From: Marinilabiliaceae bacterium
GTDB lineage: Bacteria > Bacteroidota > Bacteroidia > Bacteroidales > Marinilabiliaceae
Direction: 5' to 3'
Length of the DNA: 35,777 bases
Assembly (NCBI GenBank): GCA_021443545.1
Contig: JABUTU010000063.1
Coordinates: 1-35,777, forward strand
Below are positions 16,285 through 34,664 of this stretch, piece by piece; position 1 is the first letter of the stretch; each line of letters begins with the position of its first letter. The notes under the pieces are model-generated. The model saw only the letters and a program-made list of their open reading frames with translations. It was not told where the DNA came from and searched no databases. The position numbers and the translations under genes are program-made.

Positions 16285-16323
16285 AAAATATTTTAAACGA
16301 CCAATAGTGTGACAAAATATTTT
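16285..16323. repeat. Twin AAAATATTTT palindromes
   Basis: The 10-bp perfect palindrome AAAATATTTT occurs at 16285-16294 and again at 16314-16323, start-to-start spacing 29 bp, in similar flanks (CAAAA...TTTTAAAC and ACAAAA...TTTTACAAC). Its position 73-111 bp before the giant gene's ATG suits an operator or an A/T-rich activating element, but A/T-rich palindromes also arise by chance in such DNA. Confidence 0.3.
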
Positions 16324-16395
16324 ACAACACAATACAATAATATATGCCTCTATACGCCTATTTATATGTTGAGTAATAATATAAAACATAATAAT

Positions 16396-19300
16396 ATGAA
16401 GAAGCTAATACAACTGCTTTTCGCCTTTCTGGCGGTCCCGATAGCGGGATTAGCACAGCTGGACACAGACAAGTATGAGTATATGCTCATCAAGCCTGAA
16501 CATTTCAATGTGGATGTTATCTACACTGCGGGCGAATCACTTGCAGAAACAGATGTTATGGATGACAAGACATGTAATGGCACTGGACACCAAAATATTG
16601 GTGAGTATCCTAACAAGGCCAATGATGCATCCTACACTGACCACTCCCATGGTAATACTCGAGGAGTATTCTACGACAAAAATTTCCCTAAAGCCAGGGA
16701 GAGTCAGACCTTCAAACCATTACCCGACGACCGAATCCTCAAGGGTACAGGTGACGGCCTATGCTGGTATCTGCAACCCTACAACCAGAACAATGCTATT
16801 AAGCTGACTGGACCTAACCGACCAGCCGATAAAAATGGCGGTCCTTTCTATGCATTGAAGAGTGGTAGCACCTGGACTCGTGGGTCATTCCAGCCTACCG
16901 ACCCTGAGTCGGTGACGCTGACCTTTGAAAATGAAGGTGTGTATAAAGCCTTCTACGTTGCTGCAACTGCCACCAATGTGGCGGGCTCTACTGCCAACAT
17001 GTATGTTACTGTTAACTTCTCGGATGGCACAACTGAGACTCCCGATCCTTTCCAGGTAGCAGACTGGTGCGCTGGTGCCAAAAATCTCACATCAGGTTAT
17101 GCTACCAAGACATACAGATACCACTACTTTGACGACAACCAAAACGAGTCTGGATATAGCGATGGATTCCGCGTAGGAGCTTACATCAAGTCGTGCAAGG
17201 TAGTAATCAATACTAAAAAACTCATTAAGAGCGTCACCATCTCAACTGTTAATGCAGCTAACCCATGTAACCCTCCTTCGGGAGGCGACGCTCCTCTGTA
17301 TGTAACCATTTTTGCTATAACTGGAGAAAAGGGCGAACTCGAAGGTCCCGAGATCACTGAAGAACAAGAGGCTGCATCGAAGGCTTCAATCACGGCTACT
17401 GACCCTGACGACCTGAACAGCCCGTGGGAGTTCGACGCTAAATGGGAACAGTCGTCTGTCGTTGGTTACTATCTGTCGGTATCTAAAAACCGTGGTATGA
17501 CTGACTTCGTTGATGGTTACAACCTGAAGGTTGTCGACCACGATAGCGGTCTCTCAGGTTCTACAATATCAAGTCATGTTACTGGCCTCGACGAAGGTAC
17601 TATCTACTACTACGCCGTCAAGGGCTATAACAAGGAGAACAACATAATAACTCAGGTGACGAACTACTCTCGCGTCATCGAGTTCGCCACATCTATTAAT
17701 AATGTGGGTGGCGACGACTTCTTGAATATCAGAACAAAGGATATAGGAGCCTACGACTTTACAGCCGAGTGGACTCCTCTGACTCAATATAATGCTGTCA
17801 CAGGATACAAACTGCAATTGTATGCGGGAGAGGGTTGCTCTCTGACAAATTGTCCTGACGATTGTCTGATACGCACAATAGCTGTCTCTGGCAATAGTGC
17901 AAGTGAATGCTACATCGATGGCCTTGAGCCCGATGTGGAGTATTTCATTAAGATAACCCCTACAAGTTCCTACAACAATGGAATGGAGGGTATAGCCTCT
18001 ATTGCTGCAGCAGCCACAACTGATATCACAAAGGCTTCGGTCGACCCGGTCTCAGTGACCTACATTTCAAGTTCATCGTGCCAGCTCGACTGGTCAGCTC
18101 TCAACTCAGCAAAGGTTAAGGGTTATAAGATATACAAGTCAAACAGTGCCCTCACAGAAGCCAACTATGCGTCTGGCACCCCAGCAACCGTAACAACTAA
18201 TACCTACACGGCAACTGGGCTATCAACTACAGCAAAGACCTATTTTGCAGTAGTCCCATATACCAACGATACGAACTGCAAGCCCGCATTCGCTGTATTC
18301 GACCCCACAGTGTTGGTTGCTACAATATCGTCAACGAGCACAACCACTAATAGTATTGCACTGCAATTACAGGCAGCAGGTACATACTATACATGGAATT
18401 TCAAATATGGCAGATATGATAGAAACACCTCAAGTGGCACTGCCTCGGTTGATGAATATAAGATATTCTACTCTGCCGACAAGAACTTTTCAAATGTTCA
18501 AGAGAAGGTATTTAATGTCACTGCAACTTCATCTCCATATTCTGCGAATTATACATTGAATAATCTGTCGGAAGGAACAGTATACTACATAAAGGCTCAA
18601 CCTTCTCAGAAATACAAGACAAGAGCATATAGCAGTTCTTATATATATTACGTTGAACAAGATGTCACAAAAGACTACAACTTCTCAACAACTGGCAATG
18701 TATTAACGGTTTGGACATCGATATCCAATATCAAGCCATCGAACCTCAAGGCCTCTAACATTGAGTGCACATCGTTCGACCTGTCGTGGGATTGTACAGC
18801 AACAGCTGTCACCAAATATGAAGTATATGTGAATGGCGCAAAAGTCGGAGAGACAAATGCGACATCATTCACAGTGACTGGGCTCTCTTATGAGACCACA
18901 TACAACAACATCTACGTAAAGCCGTTTGATGCAAATAATCAAACAGGTCAGAACTCCGACGGCATAAACGTGACTACGGGTACCGTTCATGGCACATCAG
19001 TCGATGACTTTGCCGGTACAGCTCTCTCGACAACATCGACTTCTCTCATGTGGACACCAATTACAACCAATACAGGTTACTACAGCGGTTATAGGATTTA
19101 CCGAAGCGTAGGTGGAGGTGCATTCAATCAGATTGCTCAGATAAACTCGCTCTCAACAGCGACTTACACCGATAGCAATTTGGATGTCTATAAGATGTAC
19201 CAGTACAAGATTGTACCTATCGACATCAAGAACCATGAGTGCTCTATGAGCGATGCCATCTCAGTACGTACTCTTCCCGACTTCGACGAGAATATGCAGG

Positions 19301-22300
19301 TTACGGGAGTGGCGGCTGACTCCCCTACTCAGTCGAAGATTCACGTAAGCTGGAATAAGATTAACAGTACTCTCATCTCAAAGTATGTAATCAACTATTC
19401 CAAGAATGCTGACATGAGCGATGCCTCGCAGGTTGAAGCAGGAAATGTCGACAACTACGATGTTCAGCCTCTCGACTTTGGAACACGCTACTACTTCACT
19501 GTTCAGGCTTACGCTGAAGAACTTGATAAGTACACCAAGCCTTCAGCTATCGTCTCGGCATGCACCGACATCGATTGGAACCAGGAGATAACAGCTGTCT
19601 GTGGCGCCGCTGCAAACGGCGGTGACAACACCATTTCTGTTGCTTGGCAGCCCTCGACACTGACAGGTGTTAAGGGATACCATATTTACTATAGCAAGGT
19701 TCAGAATAGCTTCAACAATACCGACAGAGTATTTGTTGATTACAAGGATAGCTCAGGCAACCTAAACAGTTCCTACACTTTCACCAATCTGGACCCTTCG
19801 ACAACATACTACTACAAGTTCAGAACTGTCGACTACTCAGGCAACGAAGGCAAGGAGTCAAGTTCCGACCCAGCTTGTTCAAGCCAAAGCGAGACAGTGA
19901 CGAACATGAGTGGTAACGAGGTTGTCAGAAACCTCAATGTAATAAATATCCAGACTACCTCGGCACGCATCACATGGCTTGAGCCTGAGAATGCAAGTGG
20001 CGTCGACCACTACATCGTTGTTGTTAAGGATGCTAAGGGGAATACCCTTATCAATACAACCTCGACAAATCTTGCTTATGACGTAACGGGTCTGACACAC
20101 GCCACGAACTACACGGTCGAGGTTACTCCTGCCAATGCAGCCAATAGCACAGGTAAGGCAGCAAGCAAGAGCTTCGCAACTAAACTCGACCAGTCGATAA
20201 CTGTTACTAACCCACAGGCATCGCCTCGTTCTACATCTGTAATCGAGGTGACATGGACTGTTCAGTGTAACAATGATGCCATCGAGGGTTATCATATATA
20301 CTACAGCAAGGATGCTGCGATGAACGGTGCAAGCACAATGACTGTCAAGGGCGTAAATGCCACAAAAGGCAGAATAACGGGTCTGGAGGTCTACACCGAA
20401 TACTTCATCCAGGTTGTTCCTTATATGTCATCAACGGAGGCTACCAAGTCGGCTATCGTATCAGCCAAAACATACCTCTCAAGTGATGTAACTGTTGAGA
20501 TTGCTGTCGACCCTGCCAAGATGGAGGTAACAGCCAAGTGGTATAAAGCAAATGCTGATGCCGTTCAGAACTACTTCGTATCTCTCATCAAGAAGACTAC
20601 AACAGGTGAGACAGTTCTTGGTTCTGAATGTATTAACAGAAGCGAGGCTCAAACCGATGATGGTGGTACATTCTTCTCTCACACATTCACTGGATTGCAG
20701 GAGGGTACCAACTACGAGGTTCGCGTCGACACCTATGGCTCCGACGGATGTACCACAGTAGATGATATCGACAACTACGGTGGCTCAGCAAGCAAAGAGT
20801 TCCACACCGATATCAAGGATATAGCGGCCTCTGACCTCAGCATAACGGCTGGTTCGGTCAAGGCTACTGAGGTGGGACTTGAGTGGACCAATACCGACTG
20901 CGATGCCATCACAGGTTACTACATCGAGTATAGTACTACTTCGACATTTGATAATGGAACGACAAACCGAATCTCAATATCGAGTGCTTACAATAGCACT
21001 ACTCTCAAGAGTCTTGAGCCTGGAACTGACTACTGGTTCCGCTCGCAGGCCTACGCTCCTGACAAGGTAAGCTCGAAGTACTCAAATGTGGTTTCTGCTA
21101 CGACGCTCATCGACGAGACAATCAAGGTTACCAACGACATCACAGCAACGGGTGCTGCCAACAAGGTTATCGTCAACTGGACTCCTGCTGCGAACAATAA
21201 GGTCACTGGTTACTATGTATACTATTGCCTCGATGCCGACTGCTCATGCACCAACACAGTTGTAGATGTTCCGGGCCGATCAGCAAAGACCACAACAATC
21301 AGTGGACTTCCTGCAGGAACAACATACTACGTAAAGGTTGTTCCTTACGATGGCAACGGCGCTAAAGGCGGTGACTCAAATATCGCAAGCGCTACAACAA
21401 ACATTGACGAGACAGTAACACTGGGTAGTGATGTGACAGCAACACCTCAATACGTAGGTGGCAAGCATCAGATAAAACTCGAATGGGACAAGTCGGTCAA
21501 TGCCGCTGTAACAGGCTACTACGTATACTACGCTGAGTCGTCAGAGACGCTGAAGACAGCAACACCTCATGACGCTGGTAACAATGCTACATATACTATC
21601 GACAACCTCAAGGGTGCTACAAAATACTACATCAAGGTTGTTCCTTACGACAAGAGCAAGAATCTTGGTGGGGCTAAGTATGCTGACGCTACAACTCTTG
21701 TTGATAGTAGCATAACTGTCAAGAACGTTACAGCAACCGGTGCTGAACACAGCATTGAGGTTAGTTGGACTCCTCTGACGGGTGTCGCTGGTTATCACAT
21801 ATACTACTGCGCAGAGGCAGCATGCTCGTGCAGCACTTTTGCAAGTGTGAATGGAGCTGAGACGCAGAATACGATTATCACTGCGACTCCTGATCTTCCA
21901 GCAGCAACGAAATACTATGTCAAGGTTGTTCCTTTTGACGCTCTTGGCAACGAAGGCGGCGACTCTAACATTGCTGAGGCCACTACGACCATCGACAGTA
22001 GCGTCAAAGTCACTATCACAGCCACAGGCGGTGAAAAGAAGGTTACCGTTGCCTGGGATAAGGCAGCTTCGGGCATCACGAACTATCGTGTGTTCTATAG
22101 CACACAGATTAGTGCAGATGGTAAGAACCTCGTAGATGCAAGCTATAAGGATGCAGGCAGCTTTGCTTCATCGGCAACAAACAGCGTCACATACGATGTC
22201 ACAGGCCTTAACAGTGCCACACTCTACTACTTCCAAGTTCTGCCATTGGTTAACAGCATGGAGGGTAGCAAGTCGAATATTGTAAGTGCCACTACGACCA

Positions 22301-25300
22301 TCACCAGCGACCTTAAGGTGTCGGGTGTTAAGGTTGAGGCAGGCGCTGTTGCAGCAGACAACCTGACAGCCTCTTTGGTTATATCATGGAACGAGCTGAC
22401 TGCCAATACAGGTATCACAGGCTATAAGGTATACTATAGTACTAATAGCGATATGTCAGATGCCCAATTCGTCACAACGGGTACGACAGGCACTCAGACA
22501 ATCTCCGGTCTGACACCAGCAACTAAATACTACGTTCAGGTTGCTCCATTAGCTGGTTCTAATGAGGGTGGCAAGTCCGACATTGTTGAGGGAGCTACAG
22601 CTATTTCGAATAAGGTTGTCGCTCAATTCCTCGTTGCCGTTGGCGGTGACAAGACGGTATCTCTCAGCTGGCAAGCAGCAACAAACACTAATGTCTCTGG
22701 ATACTACGTATATTATGCAGAGAACGAGGCCGACCTTGCATCTGCAACGCCTCTTGATGCAGCTAACAAGACAACATACAACATCACAGGTCTTAAGCCA
22801 AGTACCACATACTGGGCTAAGGTTGTTCCTTACGTCCTCTCTAAGGGTAGCTACTCATTCGGTGGAGACTCTAACCATGCAAGCGCAACAACTAAGATTT
22901 CTTCCGATGTCAAGGCTCTCATAACGAGCGTCACTCCGACAGAAAACTCTGTTACTGTTGTTTGGACTGCTCCTGAGAATAGTGATGCTGTCGATGCATA
23001 CATTGTGACTATCAACAAGAAGAGCGATGGCACTGAGGTTAAGAAGGTTTCTGTGGATGCACCGACAACGACTACCACAATAACGGGTCTCAGCGCTGCA
23101 ACCAACTATACAGTAACAGTAGCACCTGCTACTATCGAGGGTGAGACAACCACACTCGGTGGTTCCGACAGCAAGGAGTTCGCAACACTGATAGGCACTC
23201 TATCTGTAGATGATGCTGACATCACAACGACTCCTGGTTACTACGATATGTCTGTTACATTCCCATTACTCAGCAATGACGCTATCAAGGAGTATACAGT
23301 CACAATATCAGATGGCACAAACTCTCAGACTAAGACAGTATCAGCAAGCACTGACCTTCCTGTTAAGTTTGATGGTTTGAACGCAAATACGGAGTACACA
23401 ATATCAGTTACTCCAAAACATACTAACAATACCGCCGGTACCACGACATCTGTCACAAAGAGTACTCTCAACCCTGCTAACGTCTCGGTTAGTAACTTGG
23501 CTGTCCAAAGCACGACAGAGACAAGTGCGACGGTTCAATGGAGTGGCGTTGCAAATATTGACGAGAGTGGTATTTATGGATATCAAATCTTGGTAGACGG
23601 ACAGGTTGTCTCAGCTACCATCTCGGGCAAGACAGCTACCATCACAGGTCTTGAGAGTTCTAAGGAATACACCATAGGCGTGACACCTATCTTGAAGAAG
23701 GGCACCGCAGCTGGTGACTCAGGCACTATGAAGACATGTGATGCAACAACGAAGATGAGTTCTTCGTCAAAGGTTGTCATCACTAAGGTTACACCTGCCG
23801 AGACATCTGCTTCGTTCGAATGGACCTGTCCTGCCAACAACGATGCCATCACAGGATATGAGGTGCGCGTTCTTAATGGTGCGACAGAGGTTCATAAGAG
23901 CGTAGCATCGGGTAAGAACACTAACTCTTACACTGTTCCAGCTGGCACACTGACAGCAGGTACCGACTATAAGGTTGTGATACGTCCTACCGATGGCACA
24001 AATTTCGGCACAAGCGCTGAGGCTACATTTGCTACGACATGCGCTAATATTCAGGTCAGCAGCATCTCTGCAACACCTGCATATACTTCAATGACCGTAA
24101 GCTTCACTAAGGTCAGCGCAACAGCTATCGACTCTTACAAGATTGAAATCCTGAAGGGCACAAGCAATGTAGGAACAGCGACCGTTACAAATGCCGACCT
24201 TGAGAATAGCAGCAAGTATCCTGTCAAGTTCACAGGTCTTGACGCTAATACTCAATACACAATTAAGGTTACTCCTTACGATGGTACGACAGCCGCTAAG
24301 ACTGCAACAACAACCAAGTCAACTCTTGATCCTACGGATATCACAGTCGACATAATCTCAGGCGAGACTCTCGGTGTGACAAGTGTCAAGGCTTCTTGGA
24401 AGAGCACTCTCAAGTATCCTGCTACCTATCCTTCTGTTGAATCTGGCGACCTTGAGGGCTATGTCATCACATGCAATGGAGCTACCGTTGCTGCGGGCAA
24501 TATGCAGATAAGTGGCAATAGCGTCACCATCAATAACCTCAGTGGATCGACAGAGTACACAATTGGTATTACGCCTATCATTGCAGGCATCGAATGTACT
24601 GAGTCGACAGTAAGTGTCATGACTGCAATGGGTAATGACCTACAGGTTACAATTACGGGCTTCACCCCTAATAATAGTGATGTCACGAAGGGTACACTGA
24701 ACTGGACACTTCCAGCAAACACAGCTTCTGTTGATGGCCTGAAGGCTACTATCACTCCAGCTAAGGGCGGAAGTGCTGTATTCACCAAGAATGATATAGC
24801 TAAGACAGCAACATCCCTTGACGTCACTGGCCTCACCGCTGGTACCGACTATATCGCAAGAGTCTGGTTCTATAGTGGTTCTACAGATGCAACACCAGCT
24901 ACATACAACTTCTCAACTGCTATTACCTCGTTGACTGCATCAGATGTTCAGATGACTGCTGGCTACGACAAGATAAAGGTTGATTTCAAGACTGCAAGCG
25001 GTGATGCTATCGACCAATATGAGGTTGTACTGACTGGTGGTGGCAAGACATTCACTAAGACTGTAAAAGTTGCCGACTTGAGCGATAAGACAAAGGGCTC
25101 TGTCCTCTTCGAGGGTTTATCAACCAACACCGAATATGGCGTAGTAATAACTCCAAAGGATACCGATAACAGCACCTCTGGAACAGCCACGACGGAGGTC
25201 AAGAAGAGCACGAAGAACCCTGCCGATGTTACTGTTGAAGGTCTTACCGCTATTGACGTCAAGACCAACAGTATCAAGGTTCAGTGGACTGGCTTGTCAG

Positions 25301-28300
25301 ATGCTTCTCTGACTCTTGCTGAGGTAAGCAAATACAATGTCTACCTCGACGGTGTCAAGGTTAGCGAAGTATCTAAGGAGCTTAAGGTCTCTGAGCTGAC
25401 AGGTCTGACAAATGCTACTCAATACAAAATTGAGATTCAGCCTGTATTGACATATGGCGATGGCGGCAAGAGCGAGGTAACAGTAACAACACTCATAGGC
25501 GATGTTGCTGTAACAATCACAACGATTACACCAGCGACTACATCTGCCAAGATTGAGTGGACCACTCCTACTAACAAGGATGGTATTACTGGGTATGAAG
25601 TTAAGATATACCAAGGCACTACAGTCAAGTATACAACCACAGTTTCTGGCAATACAACAGCTGTCTGCAACATCCCAACTGGCACATTGACTGAAGGTAC
25701 CGATTACAAGGCAGAGGTTCGCGCAGTGGCTGGAGCAACACAAAGTAGCAAGTCGGACGAGAAGACATTCTCTACACTCTGCACTAATGTTACGGCTACA
25801 GGTGTAAAAGCAACAGCAAGCTACACATCAATGGTTGTTGAGTTTACACCTGCCACAGCTACTGCCGTTGATAAGTACAAAGTTGTAGTTAAACAAGGGG
25901 CAACCGAGAAGTTCTCAACAGAACTCACACTCGATGATCTCAACGATGCTACTAAGTATCCTGTCAAAGTAACTGGTCTCAACCCTAACACAGCATACAC
26001 AGTCACAGTAACACCATACGATACAGATGCTGATGCTGCAAACCAGAAGGGTAAAGAGACAACTATAAATGTCAACACCAAGAATCCATCGGCTATCACG
26101 GTAACTGACCTCACTGGTCACACTATCGACCAGGAGAGCATCAGTGCCACATGGTCGGGACTCTCTGACAAGACAGCCGAAGGTGACATTTCGGGCTACA
26201 CAATCGAACTGAAGAAGGGTGGCACCGTCATCAGCAGTCCTGCCTACACTATTGACGGCAACAAGGTGACTTTTACAGGCTTGACCAGTGCAACTCAATA
26301 CACAATCGGTGTGACACCTCTCATAAAGGGCGTTTCAGGAACTAAGGCTACCACGACAGCAAGCACCTCAATGGGTGGTGACGTCAAGGTTAGCGACCTC
26401 ACATTCACCGCCAATGAGAGCGATGCAACAAAGGGCACACTGACATGGACTCTGCCTGAGAACAGAGCTACCATAGATGGTTATATGATTGTTGTAGCTC
26501 CTGCTAATGGCGGTGCAAATGTTGTCGACAACAAAACGGTCGGAAAGGAAATCGACACATACAATGTGACTGGTCTTGCACTTGGTACTAAGTATACAGC
26601 AACAGTTATGGCATATAAAGATGCCAATAAGGCTGACGCTGTCACCACTTCATTCACAACAAGCATAGCCGAGCTTAAAGCTTCAGACCTTACGTTGACA
26701 GCTGGCTACGATAAGATGCATGTTGAGTTCTCACCAGCGAGTGGTGATGCTATCGACCAGTATGACATTATAATCAAGGATGGCACAACAGTAGTCAGCA
26801 CACAACACGTCATAGTCGCAAGCTCAACTCTTGACGACAACGGCAAGTACTCGGTTGACTTCTCTTCTCTCACCCCTGACACCGAATATACAATTGTCGT
26901 TACTCCAAAAGATAACGACCCATTGGAGAATGGATCATATGAGACTGGTGAGGAGCTCTCTGACACCCAGTCGACGAAGAATCCTGCCGACGTAGTTGTT
27001 AGCGGCCTTACAGTTGTCAACACCACAACTTCGAGTGTTAAGGTTCAGTGGACTGGTCTTACAGACTCTGGATTGATTGCAAGCGAGGTAAGCGGTTACA
27101 ATGTATATATTGATGATGTCAAGGTAGAAGGTGCTTCCGTTATTGTCGACAAGAGTGCCAAGACAGCTGAGATTAAGGGCCTTGACAATGCTAAAGAATA
27201 CAAGGTTGAGATTCAACCTGTACTAGTCTACGGCGATGGAGGCAAAGAGGATGTCATGGCAACGACTCTCATAGGTGACGCTGTCGTTGAGATAACCAAC
27301 ATAACTCCTGCCAAGACATCCGCTAAGGTTGAGTGGTCAACACCAACTAATAAAGATGGCATCACAGGCTACAACGTAAAGGTCTATAACGGCACTACGA
27401 AAGCTTATGAAACTACAGTCACAGGCAACGCTACTGCAGTTTGCAACATACCTGCTGGAACACTGGCTGAGGCAACTAACTACAGAGTTGTAGTACGTGC
27501 AATGGCTGGTACAACTGAGAGCAGTGCTTACGACGAGGAGAATTTTGCAACCCTATGTTCAGATGTTCAGGTTGGTTCTGTAACACCAACCGCAACATAC
27601 ACAACTATAAAGGTTGAGTTTACTCCTGTGGCTGCAACGGCAACGGCCATCGACAAATACAAGGTGGTCATCACCGGTTCAGACTTCTCGAAGGAGGTTA
27701 CTCTGACCAACGATGACTTGAATGATGAGGACAAATATCCAGTTGTTGCTACAGGTCTGAAGCCAGATACTGAATACACGATTACTGTTACTCCTTATGA
27801 TGGATCAGAAGCAGGCAAGGCTCTATCTGTAACAAAGAGCACAAAGGACCCTAATGGCGTTACAGTAACAGAACTCACTGGTCAGACCGTTGATGCAGCG
27901 ACAATCAGTGCCACATGGTCAGGTTTCTCTGATGCTGAAGCAGCAAGTGAGGTGACAGGATATGTCATTACTCTCAACGGAAATTCCGCACCACATACAA
28001 TAAGCGGAAATAAGGTGACATTCACTGGTCTGACCAACTCTACTGAGTACACAATCGGTGTCACACCAATCATCGGTGGTGTCAGCTCAGGTAGCGAGGT
28101 TACGACAACAGCTCACACAGCAATGGGTGAAGGTGTCACTATCACAAATCTTAAGTTCACAGCTGATACTAATGATGCTACGAAGGGTTCCTTGACATGG
28201 AACAAACCTACAAATGACGCTGCAATTCAGGGGTACAAGGTTACCATCGTTCCTACAGGCGGTGGCGATAAGATTGCAGATGGAGCACTTGTTGACAAGC

Positions 28301-31300
28301 TTGATCTTCAATACGCCGTCACTGGACTGGCAGCTGGAACAACATATACCGCAAGTGTTCAGGGTTATAGCAGCACAGGGGTTACAGCAGCTATCTCAAC
28401 AACGTTCACTACAAGTATTAAAGACTTACAAGCTTCAGGTGTCACTTTGACTCCAGACTACGAGAGCGTCAAAGTGGAATTCACTCCTGCTGCTGGTGAT
28501 GTAATCGACGAATACGAAGTTGTCATTAAGAAGAAGGAAGATGGTTCAATTGTCGACACGAAGAACATCAAGACAACGGAAATTGGTGTCGACAACTCTA
28601 AGTACCCAGTTGTATTCTCTCCTCTTGATGCAAATACGGAATATACAGTCGAAATCACACCAAAGGATACCGACAAGCCCTCGTCTGACCCTGAATATTC
28701 AGGCAATAAGATTTCAGAGGATATAAAGACAAGTAATCCTGGTACAGTCACTGTTAACAACCTCGCTGTTGTTGAGACTAATGAATCAACAATTGTGGTT
28801 GATTGGAGTGGTCTGACAGACTCTACAATCGCAGATGAGAAGGTTGACCACTACGTTGTATATCTCAACGGCACTGAGACAACAGCTGTTGTTGATAAGG
28901 ATAACAAGACCGCCACAATATCTGGCTTGACAAATGCTACTGACTATACAGTTGCTATCCAGCCAATATTTACATTCGGTGATGGTAAGACCTCTGACAC
29001 CGTCAGCGCCCGCACCTCTGTAGGCAATGCTCAGGTATCGGGTATCACAGTCACACCTGACAAGACTGACGCTGTAATTGAATGGACAGTTCCAACAAAT
29101 AATGCTGGTATCACTGGTTACGATATCACTATTACTGATGCTGATAACAAGGTTGTATATGGCCCAATTACTGAATCTGGAGCAACAGCCAACGAACACA
29201 TTGTTCCTGCTGGCACTCTGACTCCGGGTACCGATTACACCGTCAGCATCAAGCCAACAAACGGAACAAATGCTACGACTAAGGACTTTGCCACATCGAT
29301 AGATGGTTTGACTACCACAGTCACCACTACTTCTGGATTTACCAAAGTCGAGGTTGACTTCTCTCCTGTCAGCGGCAACGCCGTCGACAGCTACGAGATT
29401 ACTGTCAAGGACAAGAACGATTCGCAAGTTGGCTCAACAATCACTCTGACCAAAGAGCAACTCTCATCGTCACTGCCTCTGACAATCGACAACTTGAATA
29501 GCGGTGAAGATTATACTATCGAGGTTCGTCCTTACGATGGCACAACTGCTGGCTCTTTGTCATCAGCTTCTGTCACAACAAAGGATCTCTCTGACCTCAA
29601 GGTTGGCAATCTCAACGTCACACCAGCAGAGCAGAGCGCTACCCTCTCATGGGATGACATCCTCTTCGATGGTACATCATTTGCTATAAGCGACCTAACC
29701 AATATCGAGGTTAAGGTGTACAACTCAAGCAATGTTGAGGTAGGCACCGTTACTCTCAATGGTGACAAGCTCGGAGCTTCTATCAATAACCTGACAGCAG
29801 GTAGCAAGTACACAGCTAAGGTGACTCCAATCGTCGAAGGTGACAAGCGAGGCTATACCGAGAGCATAAGCTTCTCTACATCAAGTTCTGATTCTAAAGC
29901 AACAGACATTGATATCACATCAACATTCGATGAGATTACGGTTGACTTCACTCCTGCTTCAGAAGAGACGATAGTTAAACACATTGTCGAGCTCCAGGAT
30001 AGCGAAGGCAATACAATCGAGTCTGTCGAAGTCACTGACCCATCTCAAATCCCTGTCAAGTTTACAGGTCTCGATGATGGTACAACCTACATCGTTGTCA
30101 TTACCCCTGTTGATGAGGATGGCAAGCCTGCTGTCGCTACAGACGAGACCATTACAACGAAGGACCTTGACGATATCACTCTCGAAAACTTCAGAGTAAC
30201 TGATACAACCACTACAACAGCAGTTCTCAAGTGGGACGATATCAAATACGAAGAGACCTCATTCAACATGGGTGATGTAACAGGATTTAATATTATCGTC
30301 AAGGATTCTGAGGGCGGTGTTGTAAGTTGCACTACATCAGTCAATGCAGATAAGAAGGGCGCCACAATCAGCGGTCTGGAAGAGGGTAAGAACTACACCG
30401 TTATTGTTGCTCCAGTCATCGCTGCAGGTACAGGCTCTTCATCAAGTGAGGATTTCCACACCTCAATAGAGAACGCTAAGGTTGACAATCTCGTTGTCGA
30501 GCCTGATTACGATGAAATCATAATTGACTTCGACCCTGAAGATGAAGATAAAGATGCTGTCAAGGAATATGAGGTTGTAATATCTGACGAGGATGGCAAT
30601 CCTGTCAAGACAGAGACAATCACTGACCCTGATCAGTTACCTCTCATCATCACGCCTCTCGAACCTGGCAAGCAGTACACAGTTGATGTCACTCCAGTTG
30701 ATGAGGATGGTAATAAGGGTAAGACAACCTCAGAGACAGTTAACACAAAATCGCTCACTGACCTGAAGGTTCAAAACCTCAAGGGTGAAACAATCGATAC
30801 TCAGACTATCAAAGTGACTTGGATTGGTTTCAGCGATACCGAAATAACCAATGACAAGGTTATTGGATACGACATCGTTGTCAAGAAGACCGATGGCACT
30901 GTGGCAAGCGATGCAGTCGTATCGATTAACAAGGAGGGTGAGTTTGCAACAATCAGTGGTCTCGACATAGCAACAACATACAATGTAAGCGTTGCTCCGA
31001 TTATTGCAGCTGGCACTGGTGCTTCTGAAACAGTATCAGCAACAACAGCTATCGGCGAGATATCTGTTAGCGATATTAAGGTTACATCAACGGAGACTAC
31101 AGCCCACATCGAGTGGACTAATCCTTCGACAACCGATGGTATCGCCGGATATGAGGTCGTAGTTAAAGATGCTGAAGGTAATGAGTTCGTCAAGACGACT
31201 GATAGCTCAACCGATACATCTATCGACTTCATTGATCTCACACCTGGCACTAAGTACACTGTCACAATACGTCCAAAAGACGAATCTAGCAAGTATGGCA

Positions 31301-33714
31301 GCGCAGCCATCGAAGAGTTTTCTACTCGCATCGACAACCTCTCGGTTAGTGATGTAGTTATCGATAGCGACTTCGAAGAGGTGATTGTCGACTTCAAGCC
31401 TGCTGATGGCGACGCTATCAAGGAGTATGAGATTGTCATTACAGACAAGGATGGTAATGTCGTGAAAACTGAGACCGTCGATAGCAGAGATATCGATACC
31501 CTACCAATACACATCCCTGGTTTGACTCCAGGCGAAGACTACGTCATCAGCATCACTCCTGTTGATATCAACGGAGAGAAGGGCACGACGGTTGATACTC
31601 CTGTCTCAACAAAGAGCCTTGACGGAATCAAACTGACCGGTTTGCGAGGCGAAACAGTTGACGAGACAACAGTTCGCATCATCTGGTCAGGGCTTGAAGA
31701 TCAGTTTGTATCAATCAATGATGTCACAGGCTATGATATCGTAGTTAAACTCGATGGCAAGGTTATTGACGACGCTGTCGTAACAATCGATATGGAGAGT
31801 CATATAGCAACAATCACTGGTCTGAAACATGCTACTACATACGACATTGAGGTGACACCTTCAATCTCCGCTGGTAAGGGCAGTGCAACAGCTACATCGG
31901 CTACAACAGCCTTTACTGACCTGAAAGTTGAGAATATCAAGGTTACACCTGCTGACGAGTCGGCACTCGTTGAATGGACTCTTCCAGAGGCAACAGACGG
32001 ACTGTACGGATACCTGGTGGTTGTTACGGATGTCAACAATAATGTCATCTTCACAACTACGACAGATGGTGCTGACAAGACGTCTGCTACAGTTGAGTCA
32101 CTCAAGCCAGCTACTAAGTACACCGTTAAGGTTCAGCCTTCAAACGGCGTGGGTGGCTTAGGCGCTCCTGAATATAAGGAGTTCTCTACATCAGCTTCAA
32201 CTGTTGGTGTCGGGAATGTTGAGGTCGATCCTACATACGATGAGATTAAGATTGACTTTAAGCCTGCCGATGGTAACTCAATCGAGGAATACGAAGTTGT
32301 TGTCAAGGATAAAGATGGCAATGTAATTGCAACCGAGACAATAACAAACGATGAACTCAGCAAGTTACCTATCATCATAGATGGTCTGAACGATGGTACT
32401 GACTACGTAGTTGAGATTACTCCTATTGACAATAATGGTGATAAGGGTAAGACTGAGACTGTCGAAGTTTCAACTAAGAATCTCGATGACCTCAAGGTGA
32501 CAGACCTCAAGATTGACGAGGTGACAGATAACTCAATTACTGTCACATGGTCGGGCATCAGTGATGGTACTATCGACCAGTCAACAGTCACCTACCAGGT
32601 AACAGCGACTGACTCTGAGGGCAATGCTGTTCCAAGCGATAAGATTATTATCAGCGATGGAAAGGCTGCTGTCACAGGTCTTGAAGAGGGCAAGGTCTAC
32701 ACAATCACTGTAACACCTGTCATTCCAGAAGGCGTGGGTGGAGATAAGAGCGTAGAGACGGCAACCAAGATTGGAGATGTCGAGGTGGGCGATTTGACTG
32801 CAACCTACGGACAGGTGCTCTCAGATATTGCTTACCAGCTCCCAGAAGGTTGCAAGTGGGCATATCCTGAAACATCAGTGGGTAACGCCGGAGAACATTA
32901 CTTCCCCGTTATCTACACCGCTCCAAGTGGCGTAGAGAAGAGATTTGATGTCACCGTGACAGTTGAGAAGGCTAATCCTCCTATCTCTAAACTCGAAGGC
33001 ATCACAGCTCAGATAGGTCAAACCCTTGGTGATATCAACCTGCCAACAGGATTCACATGGGAGGATCCAACGATAGTTCTCGACGACTACACGGAGTATC
33101 ACGTACTTGTTGATTTCATACCAGAGGATACGGACAACTACAACACACTCTATGGTATAGATGTGGTTGTAACAGTAACCGAGAATATCCCAACAGAGTT
33201 CGATGATGAATACCTTGAACTTATGTGGAACGATGTTATCGTAGTTAACGTCATAGCGATGAAGGAAGAGTTGGGACGTGACGAAGTTGCATCATTCCAG
33301 TGGTATAAGGATGGCGAAGCAATTCCTAACGCAACCAAGCAGTTCTACTGCGAGTTGGGTGGCTTAGACGGCGAGTATAAAGCAGTCGTAACCACTAAGT
33401 ATGGAAGGGAGATAACCGTAGGTCCGAAGAGAATTGAGCTTCAGGCTGACGAAACATTCAAAGTAGCCGCTAATCCAAGCGAAGTGAGTGTGGGACAGGA
33501 GTTCAAAGTCGAGGTAGGTGGTTTGACACCTGAAGAGATGAAGAAGGCTCAGCTCTACATCTACGACGTCAAGGGTTCAATGGTATATGAATCCCTTAAG
33601 ATAAGCGAGAGTAACAGTGTGATACTTCCTGCAAGAACAGAAAGAGGTATTTGCATAGTTATTGTCATCGTAAACAATAACAAGATGCAGAACTGCAAAC
33701 TCCTTGTAAAATAA
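16396..33714 (+). CDS. Giant fibronectin type III-repeat surface protein with T9SS-like tail
   Basis: A 5,772-residue protein. I chose the ATG at 16396 because it gives a clean signal peptide (M-K-K-L-I-Q-L-L-F-A, cleavage after G-L-A, residue 20); an in-frame ATG 29 codons earlier would bury it. Layout: unrecognised N-terminal domain (21-327); 18 irregular Fn3-like domains (328-2168); 34 Fn3-like domains in an ordered A-B-C cycle (2169-5461); two small beta domains of MBG-like character with Y-G-Q/I-G-Q starts (5462-5597); an Ig-like domain with Q-W-Y-K-D-G (5598-5687); and a C-terminal domain (5688-5772) ending K-L-L-V-K, resembling a type A T9SS sorting signal. No catalytic motif was seen. 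It is probably a very long adhesin or surface filament. The downstream barrel gene follows after 32 bp. Confidence 0.9.
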   Translation: MKKLIQLLFAFLAVPIAGLAQLDTDKYEYMLIKPEHFNVDVIYTAGESLAETDVMDDKTCNGTGHQNIGEYPNKANDASYTDHSHGNTRGVFYDKNFPKARESQTFKPLPDDRILKGTGDGLCWYLQPYNQNNAIKLTGPNRPADKNGGPFYALKSGSTWTRGSFQPTDPESVTLTFENEGVYKAFYVAATATNVAGSTANMYVTVNFSDGTTETPDPFQVADWCAGAKNLTSGYATKTYRYHYFDDNQNESGYSDGFRVGAYIKSCKVVINTKKLIKSVTISTVNAANPCNPPSGGDAPLYVTIFAITGEKGELEGPEITEEQEAASKASITATDPDDLNSPWEFDAKWEQSSVVGYYLSVSKNRGMTDFVDGYNLKVVDHDSGLSGSTISSHVTGLDEGTIYYYAVKGYNKENNIITQVTNYSRVIEFATSINNVGGDDFLNIRTKDIGAYDFTAEWTPLTQYNAVTGYKLQLYAGEGCSLTNCPDDCLIRTIAVSGNSASECYIDGLEPDVEYFIKITPTSSYNNGMEGIASIAAAATTDITKASVDPVSVTYISSSSCQLDWSALNSAKVKGYKIYKSNSALTEANYASGTPATVTTNTYTATGLSTTAKTYFAVVPYTNDTNCKPAFAVFDPTVLVATISSTSTTTNSIALQLQAAGTYYTWNFKYGRYDRNTSSGTASVDEYKIFYSADKNFSNVQEKVFNVTATSSPYSANYTLNNLSEGTVYYIKAQPSQKYKTRAYSSSYIYYVEQDVTKDYNFSTTGNVLTVWTSISNIKPSNLKASNIECTSFDLSWDCTATAVTKYEVYVNGAKVGETNATSFTVTGLSYETTYNNIYVKPFDANNQTGQNSDGINVTTGTVHGTSVDDFAGTALSTTSTSLMWTPITTNTGYYSGYRIYRSVGGGAFNQIAQINSLSTATYTDSNLDVYKMYQYKIVPIDIKNHECSMSDAISVRTLPDFDENMQVTGVAADSPTQSKIHVSWNKINSTLISKYVINYSKNADMSDASQVEAGNVDNYDVQPLDFGTRYYFTVQAYAEELDKYTKPSAIVSACTDIDWNQEITAVCGAAANGGDNTISVAWQPSTLTGVKGYHIYYSKVQNSFNNTDRVFVDYKDSSGNLNSSYTFTNLDPSTTYYYKFRTVDYSGNEGKESSSDPACSSQSETVTNMSGNEVVRNLNVINIQTTSARITWLEPENASGVDHYIVVVKDAKGNTLINTTSTNLAYDVTGLTHATNYTVEVTPANAANSTGKAASKSFATKLDQSITVTNPQASPRSTSVIEVTWTVQCNNDAIEGYHIYYSKDAAMNGASTMTVKGVNATKGRITGLEVYTEYFIQVVPYMSSTEATKSAIVSAKTYLSSDVTVEIAVDPAKMEVTAKWYKANADAVQNYFVSLIKKTTTGETVLGSECINRSEAQTDDGGTFFSHTFTGLQEGTNYEVRVDTYGSDGCTTVDDIDNYGGSASKEFHTDIKDIAASDLSITAGSVKATEVGLEWTNTDCDAITGYYIEYSTTSTFDNGTTNRISISSAYNSTTLKSLEPGTDYWFRSQAYAPDKVSSKYSNVVSATTLIDETIKVTNDITATGAANKVIVNWTPAANNKVTGYYVYYCLDADCSCTNTVVDVPGRSAKTTTISGLPAGTTYYVKVVPYDGNGAKGGDSNIASATTNIDETVTLGSDVTATPQYVGGKHQIKLEWDKSVNAAVTGYYVYYAESSETLKTATPHDAGNNATYTIDNLKGATKYYIKVVPYDKSKNLGGAKYADATTLVDSSITVKNVTATGAEHSIEVSWTPLTGVAGYHIYYCAEAACSCSTFASVNGAETQNTIITATPDLPAATKYYVKVVPFDALGNEGGDSNIAEATTTIDSSVKVTITATGGEKKVTVAWDKAASGITNYRVFYSTQISADGKNLVDASYKDAGSFASSATNSVTYDVTGLNSATLYYFQVLPLVNSMEGSKSNIVSATTTITSDLKVSGVKVEAGAVAADNLTASLVISWNELTANTGITGYKVYYSTNSDMSDAQFVTTGTTGTQTISGLTPATKYYVQVAPLAGSNEGGKSDIVEGATAISNKVVAQFLVAVGGDKTVSLSWQAATNTNVSGYYVYYAENEADLASATPLDAANKTTYNITGLKPSTTYWAKVVPYVLSKGSYSFGGDSNHASATTKISSDVKALITSVTPTENSVTVVWTAPENSDAVDAYIVTINKKSDGTEVKKVSVDAPTTTTTITGLSAATNYTVTVAPATIEGETTTLGGSDSKEFATLIGTLSVDDADITTTPGYYDMSVTFPLLSNDAIKEYTVTISDGTNSQTKTVSASTDLPVKFDGLNANTEYTISVTPKHTNNTAGTTTSVTKSTLNPANVSVSNLAVQSTTETSATVQWSGVANIDESGIYGYQILVDGQVVSATISGKTATITGLESSKEYTIGVTPILKKGTAAGDSGTMKTCDATTKMSSSSKVVITKVTPAETSASFEWTCPANNDAITGYEVRVLNGATEVHKSVASGKNTNSYTVPAGTLTAGTDYKVVIRPTDGTNFGTSAEATFATTCANIQVSSISATPAYTSMTVSFTKVSATAIDSYKIEILKGTSNVGTATVTNADLENSSKYPVKFTGLDANTQYTIKVTPYDGTTAAKTATTTKSTLDPTDITVDIISGETLGVTSVKASWKSTLKYPATYPSVESGDLEGYVITCNGATVAAGNMQISGNSVTINNLSGSTEYTIGITPIIAGIECTESTVSVMTAMGNDLQVTITGFTPNNSDVTKGTLNWTLPANTASVDGLKATITPAKGGSAVFTKNDIAKTATSLDVTGLTAGTDYIARVWFYSGSTDATPATYNFSTAITSLTASDVQMTAGYDKIKVDFKTASGDAIDQYEVVLTGGGKTFTKTVKVADLSDKTKGSVLFEGLSTNTEYGVVITPKDTDNSTSGTATTEVKKSTKNPADVTVEGLTAIDVKTNSIKVQWTGLSDASLTLAEVSKYNVYLDGVKVSEVSKELKVSELTGLTNATQYKIEIQPVLTYGDGGKSEVTVTTLIGDVAVTITTITPATTSAKIEWTTPTNKDGITGYEVKIYQGTTVKYTTTVSGNTTAVCNIPTGTLTEGTDYKAEVRAVAGATQSSKSDEKTFSTLCTNVTATGVKATASYTSMVVEFTPATATAVDKYKVVVKQGATEKFSTELTLDDLNDATKYPVKVTGLNPNTAYTVTVTPYDTDADAANQKGKETTINVNTKNPSAITVTDLTGHTIDQESISATWSGLSDKTAEGDISGYTIELKKGGTVISSPAYTIDGNKVTFTGLTSATQYTIGVTPLIKGVSGTKATTTASTSMGGDVKVSDLTFTANESDATKGTLTWTLPENRATIDGYMIVVAPANGGANVVDNKTVGKEIDTYNVTGLALGTKYTATVMAYKDANKADAVTTSFTTSIAELKASDLTLTAGYDKMHVEFSPASGDAIDQYDIIIKDGTTVVSTQHVIVASSTLDDNGKYSVDFSSLTPDTEYTIVVTPKDNDPLENGSYETGEELSDTQSTKNPADVVVSGLTVVNTTTSSVKVQWTGLTDSGLIASEVSGYNVYIDDVKVEGASVIVDKSAKTAEIKGLDNAKEYKVEIQPVLVYGDGGKEDVMATTLIGDAVVEITNITPAKTSAKVEWSTPTNKDGITGYNVKVYNGTTKAYETTVTGNATAVCNIPAGTLAEATNYRVVVRAMAGTTESSAYDEENFATLCSDVQVGSVTPTATYTTIKVEFTPVAATATAIDKYKVVITGSDFSKEVTLTNDDLNDEDKYPVVATGLKPDTEYTITVTPYDGSEAGKALSVTKSTKDPNGVTVTELTGQTVDAATISATWSGFSDAEAASEVTGYVITLNGNSAPHTISGNKVTFTGLTNSTEYTIGVTPIIGGVSSGSEVTTTAHTAMGEGVTITNLKFTADTNDATKGSLTWNKPTNDAAIQGYKVTIVPTGGGDKIADGALVDKLDLQYAVTGLAAGTTYTASVQGYSSTGVTAAISTTFTTSIKDLQASGVTLTPDYESVKVEFTPAAGDVIDEYEVVIKKKEDGSIVDTKNIKTTEIGVDNSKYPVVFSPLDANTEYTVEITPKDTDKPSSDPEYSGNKISEDIKTSNPGTVTVNNLAVVETNESTIVVDWSGLTDSTIADEKVDHYVVYLNGTETTAVVDKDNKTATISGLTNATDYTVAIQPIFTFGDGKTSDTVSARTSVGNAQVSGITVTPDKTDAVIEWTVPTNNAGITGYDITITDADNKVVYGPITESGATANEHIVPAGTLTPGTDYTVSIKPTNGTNATTKDFATSIDGLTTTVTTTSGFTKVEVDFSPVSGNAVDSYEITVKDKNDSQVGSTITLTKEQLSSSLPLTIDNLNSGEDYTIEVRPYDGTTAGSLSSASVTTKDLSDLKVGNLNVTPAEQSATLSWDDILFDGTSFAISDLTNIEVKVYNSSNVEVGTVTLNGDKLGASINNLTAGSKYTAKVTPIVEGDKRGYTESISFSTSSSDSKATDIDITSTFDEITVDFTPASEETIVKHIVELQDSEGNTIESVEVTDPSQIPVKFTGLDDGTTYIVVITPVDEDGKPAVATDETITTKDLDDITLENFRVTDTTTTTAVLKWDDIKYEETSFNMGDVTGFNIIVKDSEGGVVSCTTSVNADKKGATISGLEEGKNYTVIVAPVIAAGTGSSSSEDFHTSIENAKVDNLVVEPDYDEIIIDFDPEDEDKDAVKEYEVVISDEDGNPVKTETITDPDQLPLIITPLEPGKQYTVDVTPVDEDGNKGKTTSETVNTKSLTDLKVQNLKGETIDTQTIKVTWIGFSDTEITNDKVIGYDIVVKKTDGTVASDAVVSINKEGEFATISGLDIATTYNVSVAPIIAAGTGASETVSATTAIGEISVSDIKVTSTETTAHIEWTNPSTTDGIAGYEVVVKDAEGNEFVKTTDSSTDTSIDFIDLTPGTKYTVTIRPKDESSKYGSAAIEEFSTRIDNLSVSDVVIDSDFEEVIVDFKPADGDAIKEYEIVITDKDGNVVKTETVDSRDIDTLPIHIPGLTPGEDYVISITPVDINGEKGTTVDTPVSTKSLDGIKLTGLRGETVDETTVRIIWSGLEDQFVSINDVTGYDIVVKLDGKVIDDAVVTIDMESHIATITGLKHATTYDIEVTPSISAGKGSATATSATTAFTDLKVENIKVTPADESALVEWTLPEATDGLYGYLVVVTDVNNNVIFTTTTDGADKTSATVESLKPATKYTVKVQPSNGVGGLGAPEYKEFSTSASTVGVGNVEVDPTYDEIKIDFKPADGNSIEEYEVVVKDKDGNVIATETITNDELSKLPIIIDGLNDGTDYVVEITPIDNNGDKGKTETVEVSTKNLDDLKVTDLKIDEVTDNSITVTWSGISDGTIDQSTVTYQVTATDSEGNAVPSDKIIISDGKAAVTGLEEGKVYTITVTPVIPEGVGGDKSVETATKIGDVEVGDLTATYGQVLSDIAYQLPEGCKWAYPETSVGNAGEHYFPVIYTAPSGVEKRFDVTVTVEKANPPISKLEGITAQIGQTLGDINLPTGFTWEDPTIVLDDYTEYHVLVDFIPEDTDNYNTLYGIDVVVTVTENIPTEFDDEYLELMWNDVIVVNVIAMKEELGRDEVASFQWYKDGEAIPNATKQFYCELGGLDGEYKAVVTTKYGREITVGPKRIELQADETFKVAANPSEVSVGQEFKVEVGGLTPEEMKKAQLYIYDVKGSMVYESLKISESNSVILPARTERGICIVIVIVNNNKMQNCKLLVK
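16456..17376 (+). other. Unrecognised N-terminal domain of the giant protein
   Basis: Residues 21-327, before the Fn3 array. Beta-rich, with many aromatic and Asn/Gly residues (for example V-Y-K-A-F-Y-V-A-A-T-A and Y-R-Y-H-Y-F-D-D-N), consistent with a jelly-roll or other beta-sandwich. It includes F-K-P-L-P-D-D-R-I-L-K-G-T-G-D-G-L-C-W-Y and several cysteines. As the only non-repeated globular part at the distal end of a long stalk, it is the best candidate for the ligand-binding head. That is inference from position, not from a known family. Confidence 0.5.
17377..22899 (+). repeat. Fn3 array 1: about 18 irregular domains
   Basis: Residues 328-2168, about 102 residues per domain. Most show the Fn3 pattern: a core Trp on strand B, then G-Y-x-[IV]-Y-Y-S on strand C, then G-L-x-x-x-T-x-Y-[YF]-x-[KR]-V on strands E-F and a closing A-T-T. 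Domains 13 and 15 share a C-x4-C-S-C motif after Y-Y, and domains 14 and 18 share Y-Y-A-E with a following A-T-P-x-D-A, which suggests local duplications. Domain 4 is long, with an insert rich in Tyr and Ser. Boundaries are by eye. Confidence 0.8.
22900..32778 (+). repeat. Fn3 array 2: 34 domains in an A-B-C cycle with ~1.75-kb super-repeats
   Basis: Residues 2169-5461, about 97 per domain. Three domain types follow in order. Type A has W-x-x-P and [I/V]-x-G-Y; type B has Phe in place of the core Trp, as V-[DE]-F-x-P-A, with a D-A-I-D-x-Y-like strand; type C has W-S/T-G-[LFI] with a longer loop before strand C. Twelve cycles are seen, two of them lacking A. Pairs of cycles form blocks at about 22900-24627, 24628-26370, 26371-28122, 28123-29889, a short 29890-31059, and 31060-32778. 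Within blocks I-IV every second A domain carries P-[AT]-G-T-L before its strand F. Confidence 0.85.
32779..33714 (+). other. C-terminal domains and T9SS-like sorting tail of the giant protein
   Basis: Two related beta domains (residues 5462-5526 and 5527-5597; each opens G-x-x-L-x-D-I and closes V-D/V-V-T-V-T-V), then an Ig-like domain (5598-5687) with Q-W-Y-K-D-G-E-A-I and a conserved cysteine, then the C-terminal domain (33457-33714). The tail shows the usual order: N-P-S near the start, L-Y-I-Y-D-V-K-G-S-M-V-Y in the middle, and a hydrophobic last hairpin ending L-L-V-K. Such tails direct T9SS export and are usually cleaved on the surface. Confidence 0.75.
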
Positions 33715-33746: not shown

Positions 33747-34664
33747 ATGAACTATATAAAATCAATATTAACAACAGCTTTGGCACTGTCGACGATGTCG
33801 GCAGTTGCCCAAAGCATCTCTAACGACATCCGTCTTAGTCGTTCTACTATTGCTCCTACTTTTGAGGAGGTGAAGTTTATCAGTATAGGTATCAATGGAG
33901 GAGAGAGTTCTCTCCACTTCGACCCTGACTGTGGTGACCGTTCTCTCGGTGGTGGGGGTTCCTTTAGTATCGACTATAACCAGTTCTTCAATCGTAATTG
34001 GGGTATCACAGCTGGCTTGGGAGCCTCTCTGAGTAATAGTAAAATCAGTCTTGATGACACTTTGAAATATGAGATGAAAGATGTTGAGAACAATCAAGAG
34101 CTCCTGTTCAAAGTTATCATGGACGGATGGACAGAGAAACAGCGTAGCGTACAACTCGACATCCCTATTGGCGCTCTATTTCGTCATAACTTCACCAACA
34201 GACTGACATTTATGGCAAGCGCTGGTGTCAAGTTGAGTTTCCCTCTTCGAACCAAATATGAGGTTCTCGAAGGCTCGTACGAGACTAAGGGATACTACAA
34301 AAAGACAGGTGTTGAGATTGACGATCTTCCACATCATGGATTCCTGCTGACAGATCCACGTCCAGCCAGCAAGATTCCTACGAAAGTGGTCAGTGCCTCA
34401 CTGTTCCTTGATGCTACACTCATCAATCGTCTAAACCGCAATATCAATATCTTCTATGGTGTCTTTGCGGCCTTAGGTGTGACCGATAACGGCAAAAGTC
34501 ATGATGATGCTGTGGTAGACCCAAATCGCAAATATACCAGTGTTATGGCTTCCGATAAGGTCGACCGCTTTAACGTTCGTAACTTCGGCTTGCGCGCAGG
34601 TATAAAGATTCCTATCTCATTCTTCCGCAACCGCTTCGGCAAATACCACCATTCAAGTTACTAA
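33747..34664 (+). CDS. Outer-membrane beta-barrel protein, partner candidate of the giant
   Basis: A 305-residue protein with a Sec signal peptide (M-N-Y-I-K-S then a hydrophobic core, cleavage after A-V-A, before Q-S) and about 8-12 amphipathic beta strands typical of an OMP beta-barrel. Examples are I-S-I-G-I-N-G-G, W-G-I-T-A-G-L-G-A-S-L and N-F-G-L-R-A-G-I-K-I. The chain ends in Tyr, as many barrels end in an aromatic residue. There is no OmpA peptidoglycan-binding domain, and the N-terminus lacks the usual PorP/SprF opening. The gene starts 32 bp after the giant gene with no terminator between, so the two are probably one transcript. It may anchor the giant, help its export, or be an unrelated porin. 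Confidence 0.8.
   Translation: MNYIKSILTTALALSTMSAVAQSISNDIRLSRSTIAPTFEEVKFISIGINGGESSLHFDPDCGDRSLGGGGSFSIDYNQFFNRNWGITAGLGASLSNSKISLDDTLKYEMKDVENNQELLFKVIMDGWTEKQRSVQLDIPIGALFRHNFTNRLTFMASAGVKLSFPLRTKYEVLEGSYETKGYYKKTGVEIDDLPHHGFLLTDPRPASKIPTKVVSASLFLDATLINRLNRNINIFYGVFAALGVTDNGKSHDDAVVDPNRKYTSVMASDKVDRFNVRNFGLRAGIKIPISFFRNRFGKYHHSSY

Follow-up and report, generated by a model that had tools for sequence, protein, structure and literature searches.

Introduction

Nested super-repeats made of several fibronectin type III (FnIII, Fn3) domain types are best known from titin, where the periodicity of muscle is invoked as their explanation. According to the excerpts of PMC10665226 used here, FnIII types A, B and C occupy fixed positions in the D-zone and C-zone of the titin A-band, ABC tandems lie within longer super-repeats, and growth by duplication of larger units has been proposed. 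Here we describe such an arrangement in a bacterium. It lies in a giant open reading frame (ORF) on contig JABUTU010000063.1 of a Marinilabiliaceae bacterium (assembly GCA_021443545.1); the window is the whole analysed stretch of 35,777 nt, positions 1 to 35,777 of the forward strand. The ORF (16309..33714, + strand) encodes 5801 aa from a GTG codon and carries two Fn3 arrays, the second of which (array 2, 22897..32766, + strand, aa 2197-5486) had been outlined in an earlier note made from the sequence alone. In our reading, array 2 is the shaft, old and built by stepwise duplication, of a giant surface protein that a gut Bacteroidales exports through the type IX secretion system (T9SS); we put the probability of this at roughly 0.72.

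Three domain types in a cyclic order

Tiling of array 2 from 22897 to 32766 gave 34 domains, the number already counted in the earlier note, in the order (ABC)x8-BC-BC-(ABC)x2. The twelve A-B-C cycles proposed there have to be corrected: cycles 9 and 10 lack A, and the 34 domains are those of ten full cycles and two B-C dyads. By iterated profile the whole ORF contained 52 Fn3-like domains, 18 in array 1 and 34 in array 2. When array 2 domains were scanned singly with PF00041, 28 of 34 scored over the curated cut-off, three matched below it, and B03, B07 and C08 had no match at E 0.001; the array's own Fn3 profile matched 34/34. The array 2 domains are members of the Fn3 family (PF00041).

Leave-one-out profiles assigned 34/34 domains to the type predicted by position, most narrowly for C8 (C 41.6 vs A 37.4 bits). 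The nearest neighbour by identity was of the same type for 33 of the 34, the exception being C8 again, nearest to A12. Mean identity was 33% for pairs of the same type (177 pairs) and 23% for pairs of different types (384 pairs); neighbours averaged 23% as well. Type B is also set apart by one residue, the strand-B Trp being replaced by Phe in 12/12 B domains and in 0/22 A or C domains. The earlier scheme was to fall if the types did not form separate clades, or if neighbouring domains were always closest relatives. In the IQ-TREE tree of the 34 domains, B (98/95) and C (96/87) are separate, each forming one side of a branch. Type A is undecided: it needed two changes in the best tree, and a tree keeping it together was only 0.26 log-likelihood units worse (approximately unbiased test, p-AU 0.42). 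Neighbours are not closest relatives, and identity above 40% was found in 0/33 adjacent pairs (maximum 31%) and 0/30 pairs at lag 2, compared with 6/30 at lag 3 and 13/26 at lag 6. The highest identity between any two domains of the array was 68%.

A six-domain super-repeat within the array

Domain-level autocorrelation, done after Bjorklund et al. (PMC1553488, excerpts), gave two peaks for array 2, one at lag 3 (z 6.5) and a higher one at lag 6 (z 10.9); none of 2000 shuffles reached either. Cycles 1-8 alone favoured lag 6 (z 9.9, with z 2.9 at lag 3), and cycles 9-12 alone peaked at lag 3 (z 4.6, 0/2000 shuffles). Shuffling cycles 1-8 within types never reproduced the observed score of domains two cycles apart (0/20000). 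For these eight cycles odd/even was the best labeling for A, B and C (2/70 each, the split and its mirror image), whereas for all cycles the odd/even score was reached by 4/252 (A), 98/924 (B) and 72/924 (C) labelings. Parity over the whole array was ruled out for cycles 9-12 by these label permutations together with the lag 3 peak.

The 34-domain tree contained parity classes for A (A2/4/6, 98/96; A3/5/7, 100/99) and for C (C2/4/6, 99/94; C3/5/7, 100/99). Type B yielded no more than two pairs, B4/B6 (83/82 and 91/79) and B3/B5 (86/72). Concatenated triplets grouped cycles 2/4/6 (100/99) and cycles 3/5/7 (100/100) and left cycles 1 and 8 outside; the four even cycles as one group were absent from the best concatenated tree and not rejected (p-AU 0.29). 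Cycles 4 and 6 were each other's best relatives for all three types, as were cycles 3 and 5 for B and C. Further downstream, the reciprocal best pairs A11/A12, B10/B11 and C10/C11 lie three slots apart.

The super-repeat is thus real, and confined to cycles 2-7 and part of cycle 8. There the six-domain unit of the earlier note stands, while cycle 1 and cycles 9-12 do not follow it; the odd and even A and C domains that it distinguished are recovered in cycles 2-7, cycles 1 and 8 lying outside these classes and cycles 9-12 having the three-domain period. On the + strand, cycles 1-2 occupy 22897..24624, with cycle 2 in the even class and cycle 1 outside the odd class. Tiling, tree and autocorrelation support two blocks, cycles 3-4 (24625..26364) and cycles 5-6 (26365..28119). 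In the next, cycles 7-8 (28120..29877), C8 falls outside the even C class and pairs with C9. Two details of the earlier description were reproduced by the tiling: equivalent Met codons at 24628, 26371 and 28123, spaced 1743 and 1752 nt, and a QP followed by GDGG or GDGK shared by C3, C5 and C7. Cycles 9-12 (BC, BC, ABC, ABC; 29878..32766) have three-domain periodicity and are more acidic. We also noted a net charge of -14 to -19 in B9-B12 and, by eye, DxDGN-like loops in cycles 9-12 that are perhaps calcium-binding.

The limits of the block are blurred. The tree groups A3 and A5 (97/64), but by identity A5 is nearest A7, so that the block boundary cannot be fixed. Similarly, cycles 3, 5 and 7 stand roughly equally far apart in their A and B domains (37-46% identity), and the boundary of the duplication cannot be placed from them. 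The most similar stretch is C3-A4-B4-C4 vs C5-A6-B6-C6, with 56-68% identity. An AlphaFold2 model of cycles 3-4 had the Fn3 fold, with a mean predicted local distance difference test (pLDDT) score of 91.7; in its structural comparison by VIA-align the rows mostly span model residues 4-292.

Broken cycles and domain ends

C8 (29584..29877, + strand) and C9 (30163..30459, + strand) are directly followed by B9 and B10, the A being missing, and the last strand of C8 carries the Phe typical of A; the end of C9 is A-like in the same manner. Phe was found within the last seven residues of 12/12 array 2 domains that precede a B, C8 and C9 included, and of 0/22 others. Apart from these two exceptions, F at domain ends of array 2 is confined to A domains. 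C8 and C9 are sisters in the 34-domain tree (96/80). When A was scored against C, C9 was C-like over its whole body (-51 bits, compared with -54 to -68 for C10-C12), and C8 was ambiguous along its length (+7 bits). We accordingly rejected C8 and C9 as clear C::A chimeras, as only the end of C9 is A-like and C8 is ambiguous throughout. On a simple reading of the sequence, A would have been lost by recombination in the last strand, and the loss then copied once with the dyad. Selection for a Phe before B fits the ends of C8 and C9 equally well, and a late gain of A elsewhere, instead of a loss here, is possible.

Age of the copies

Among 23 domain pairs tested, the proportions of nonsynonymous (pN) and synonymous (pS) differences were 0.19-0.52 and 0.61-0.85 respectively; synonymous divergence (dS) was 1.24-2.85 in 13 pairs and not computable in the other 10. 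The longest exact direct repeat in the giant gene measured 18 nt; for periods of up to 500, Tandem Repeats Finder listed no tandem repeat. The duplications are old, with synonymous sites near or at saturation and with the domains under constraint. A low nonsynonymous divergence (dN 0.21 for A4/A6) speaks for constraint on each domain, not on their order. A recent or phase-variable expansion was ruled out, near-identical copies being absent.

Paralogues and other stalks

Two further giant Fn3 ORFs were found in the same genome, on contigs C6 (3902 aa, 29 domains by profile; locus L020:98-11803) and C84 (2514 aa, 15 domains). Four A-B-C triplets of paralogue C6 align with those of array 2, and the triplet must be older than the split of these paralogues, or have been exchanged between the genes. 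The C6 triplets formed no supported clade; a single clade was absent from the best tree and not rejected (p-AU 0.28). The layout of C6 is roughly ABC-MM-D-ABC-ABC-MM-D-ABC-MM, where M is a paired non-Fn3 beta-type repeat, recognised by eye, and D a further Fn3 type; an A-like domain also lies outside the triplets (aa 1052-1141). Its junctions carry F at 4/4 A-B and also at 2/4 B-C positions. In C84 the motif is not clear before the two B-like domains.

A profile of the triplet matched in the own genome only, and in none of 70 other genomes of the family (E 1e-12), 392 of the order and 394 of the phylum (E 1e-15), sets that overlap and of which the last two were scored for at most six candidates per genome, in a collection covering roughly half of the GTDB species. 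The N-terminal 356 aa had a match in 0/14 other congeners, and a contig search with 3605 aa returned 12 pattern matches, none a relative. PF00041 matches numbered 0-3 per genome in the 14 congeners vs 82 in the own genome. Against the PDB, the triplet profile matched titin chains best (E 5.6e-41); fibronectin and others matched as well.

The last 172 aa of the giant protein (an Ig-like domain by eye, plus a tail; hereafter the chassis) are common to C6, C84 and giants of sister species. The latter, in genomes G009 and G013 (3625 aa; L022:5618-16492 and L023:6159-17033) and again G009 (2902 aa; L026:4371-13076), carry 24-32 repeats of another family and at most one Fn3 by profile. Their autocorrelation had two peaks, with z of 4.8-5.5 at lag 2 and of 6.5-8.4 at lag 4. 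When the 3625-aa giant of G009 was halved, the first 16 repeats showed both lags and the last 16 lag 4 only. Growth by several domains at a time thus needs no special Fn3 feature, given nested periods in other-repeat stalks on the same chassis. In the congener G003 (L024) we observed an open frame of 10406 aa, of which 4475 aa were examined, with Listeria-Bacteroides-like repeats by eye, a weakly matching C-terminus and a barrel gene downstream.

C-terminal chassis and adjoining barrel gene

The chassis of the giant protein (33196..33711, + strand) ends in a tail akin to the type A sorting domain of T9SS substrates (TIGR04183); homologous tails of relatives pass the type A cut-off in 10/10 sampled cases. 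An outer-membrane beta-barrel gene (33747..34664, + strand; PF13568, 35.5 bits vs a cut-off of 27) lies 32 nt downstream of the giant ORF. We surveyed the best 80 of 129 chassis loci (1.37 Mb, 83 chassis ORFs): after 77/83 chassis ORFs a similar barrel gene came next, in the same orientation and at a distance of -400 to 600 nt, and conversely 77 of the 80 barrel matches in the 1.37 Mb stood in this position. The barrel profile was built from the same loci, which makes it circular for detection and not for position. The six chassis ORFs with no barrel after them are all in L137, L144 and L147. For paralogue C6 the contig stops within about 100 nt of the gene end, where a barrel gene would be sought. 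None of the 83 chassis ORFs had three or more Fn3 domains in the loci, which reach at most 10 kb upstream. The pairing of chassis and barrel spans several Bacteroidota groups (L068-L147).

Among 10 barrels scanned, that of the window included, five passed PF13568 and five carried an OmpA domain; PorP_SprF had no match at E up to 0.01 in any of the 10. For TIGR04131 (type B), neither the window tail (E up to 1) nor 10 relatives (E up to 0.1) gave a match. A type B T9SS substrate with a PorP/SprF partner was thereby rejected, neither the tail nor the barrel being of that kind. According to the excerpts of PMC12618676, dedicated downstream barrels go with type B tails, and type A tails use PorV. 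The type A-like tail and the barrel described here may therefore form a separate substrate-barrel pairing. SprA_N is present in the own genome, and the giant protein is probably exported through the type IX system. The best-matching chassis loci came from metagenome-assembled genomes of Bacteroidales from horse faeces; that the own genome also stems from a herbivore gut is our guess.

Upstream of array 2, a start at ATG 16396 is likelier than the GTG, as read from the sequence, and would yield a signal-peptide-like MKKLIQLLFAFLAVPIAGLAQ. The N-terminal domain (16453..17376, + strand) has a homologue at the N-terminal end of paralogue C84 (33% identity); Pfam and NCBIfam gave no family for it, and it is a candidate distal binding tip. 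Array 1 (17374..22845, + strand) consists of 18 diverged domains that follow no cycle. Autocorrelation over 16 of them lacked a clear peak (z 1.7 at the best lag, 2). The domain at aa 1199-1288 was A-like by profile assignment. Array 2 is followed by two small beta-type repeats of a non-Fn3 family (32767..33195, + strand), which, compared by eye, also come after ABC units in paralogue C6. No Pfam family scored over cut-off for them; they may be MBG-like.

Two neighbouring genes were also noted. A divergent one (11474-15988, - strand) encodes 1504 aa with two kinds of repeats, BspA-type leucine-rich and Listeria-Bacteroides, and with a tail that weakly matches type A, and is a candidate further surface protein. 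Beyond the barrel gene lies a PDDEXK_9 nuclease-family gene (34797-35774, - strand).

Proposed history and alternatives

A simple history of array 2 would begin with the formation of an A-B-C Fn3 triplet, before the split of the two paralogous genes unless exchanged. Single triplets would then have been duplicated. Over the N-terminal two thirds, a pair of triplets that had diverged would have become a six-domain block, which went through two or more duplications. The two B-C dyads would stem from a single in-frame loss of A between C and B that was later copied. The product would be a long rod that keeps the N-terminal domain at a distance from the cell, and export or anchoring would involve the C-terminal chassis and the barrel encoded next to it. 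Of the growth by unequal duplication of a six-domain block claimed earlier, block duplication is upheld for cycles 2-7; unequal duplication would be its presumed molecular event.

Several points weigh against this reading. Near-saturated synonymous sites leave no breakpoints, so that crossing-over, slippage and gene conversion are indistinguishable. B hardly resolves parity, and the A domains of odd cycles are ambiguous. The A-like end that suggests a chimera in C8 and C9 is a short motif, the body of C9 being C-like. The predicted template modelling score (pTM) of the cycles 3-4 model was 0.58, which leaves the relative placement of domains uncertain. The window tail scored 14.7-16 bits against type A (cut-off 23) and 17.4-18.8 bits against type C (cut-off 40), below both. 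Finally, the searches found no orthologue with a different block number, and growth could thus not be watched.

The earlier note held that selection keeps the fixed order. We could not confirm this: the order is broken twice, and since block duplication by itself preserves order, the history of the array explains the arrangement with no selection for order. A stronger form of the idea is an interface code, in which types fit only their proper neighbours and selection holds the cyclic order, with a defined superstructure as proposed for titin. The junction-specific ends agree with it, as do the strand-B Phe of the B domains, the F borne by C8 and C9, which as C domains stand before a B, and the F at all A-B junctions of paralogue C6. 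Type-specific residues in A and B are, however, explained by common descent, which leaves C8 and C9 as the independent cases, probably from one event; moreover, F also occurs at half the B-C junctions of C6, C84 has no clear motif, the order fails in cycles 9-10, and array 1 has none. We consider such a code unlikely. An equally doubtful extension would make array 2 a bacterial counterpart of the titin A-band, in which the junction code (F before B, Phe for Trp in B) sets the order and doubled periods are general on this chassis, 2/4 in the sisters and 3/6 here. Somewhat better placed, though still the less probable account, is that selection against misfolding of adjacent like domains spreads multi-type units and removes single-domain duplications, the order being a by-product. 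This rule of misfolding avoidance is stated in PMC4647330, PMC8201768 and PMC4660218 (excerpts of each), and the identities, above 40% for some pairs at lags 3 and 6 and never between neighbours, conform to it. But lag 2 pairs too are all below 40%, and old adjacent unlike types would differ anyway, so that these identities are no test of selection.

Two further explanations concern the copies themselves. Gene conversion between alternate triplets, in place of block duplication, could have made the six-domain pattern: the top identities (0.56-0.68) fall in the four contiguous domains C3-A4-B4-C4 and C5-A6-B6-C6 and do not extend over all six, a pattern that could come from a conversion tract. 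Conversion alone would leave the odd and even A and C clades of three members each unexplained, and we regard it as improbable. That the array is an artefact of the draft assembly is most improbable, even though the genome is in 104 contigs and 88% complete and the contigs of C6 and C84 end within about 100 nt of the ends of their giant genes. With exact repeats of at most 18 nt and no listed tandem repeats, an assembly from short reads would neither collapse the array nor join it wrongly.

Comparison with known systems

Like the titin A-band, array 2 has three sequence types at fixed positions within a longer unit, the longer unit here covering cycles 2-7 only. The titin C-zone unit is -AC-ABC-ABC with Ig domains between, and its dyads lack B, whereas the dyads of array 2 lack A. 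Paralogue C6 comes even nearer to the titin layout, its ABC tandems being parted by pairs of another beta domain. The likeness to titin presumably reflects convergence. Nebulin and other domain repeats similarly show several domains duplicated together and mixed unit sizes per protein; in the excerpts of PMC1553488, Fn3 repeats mostly expand by four domains, while array 2 expands by three and six, and in a bacterium.

Among bacterial proteins, the Acinetobacter biofilm-associated protein (BAP) is also a giant surface protein with several Ig-like module types, the EFG module in 2 or 4 copies (PMC4647330, excerpts); it belongs to another domain family, and those excerpts describe no nested three- and six-domain periodicity. 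Periscope proteins are bacterial stalks that present a distal binding domain off the cell (PMC8201768, excerpts), a role that array 2 may share. Their repeats are highly similar and variable in length according to the same excerpts, and array 2 lacks such high mutual identity between tandem domains: its copies are old, with at most 31% identity between neighbours and 68% between any pair. SprB/SprF and other pairs of type B C-terminal domain and barrel share the succession of giant surface protein and outer-membrane barrel gene (PMC12618676, excerpts), but here the tail is type A-like and PorP_SprF had no match among the 10 barrels.

We came across no report of A, B and C types in a bacterial FnIII array; the literature searched left most subscription journals outside, and this is no proof of absence. 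Multi-domain duplication is already known and titin is the closest architecture; what is new is such a variant in a bacterium. Array 2 combines three domain types with two nested periods, and two of its cycles are broken; it is an independent bacterial case for studying domain order, junction chemistry and misfolding avoidance, and its copies record how such a stalk grew. The varied stalks on one chassis beside a barrel gene likewise offer an entry into the export and anchoring of type IX-secreted giants.
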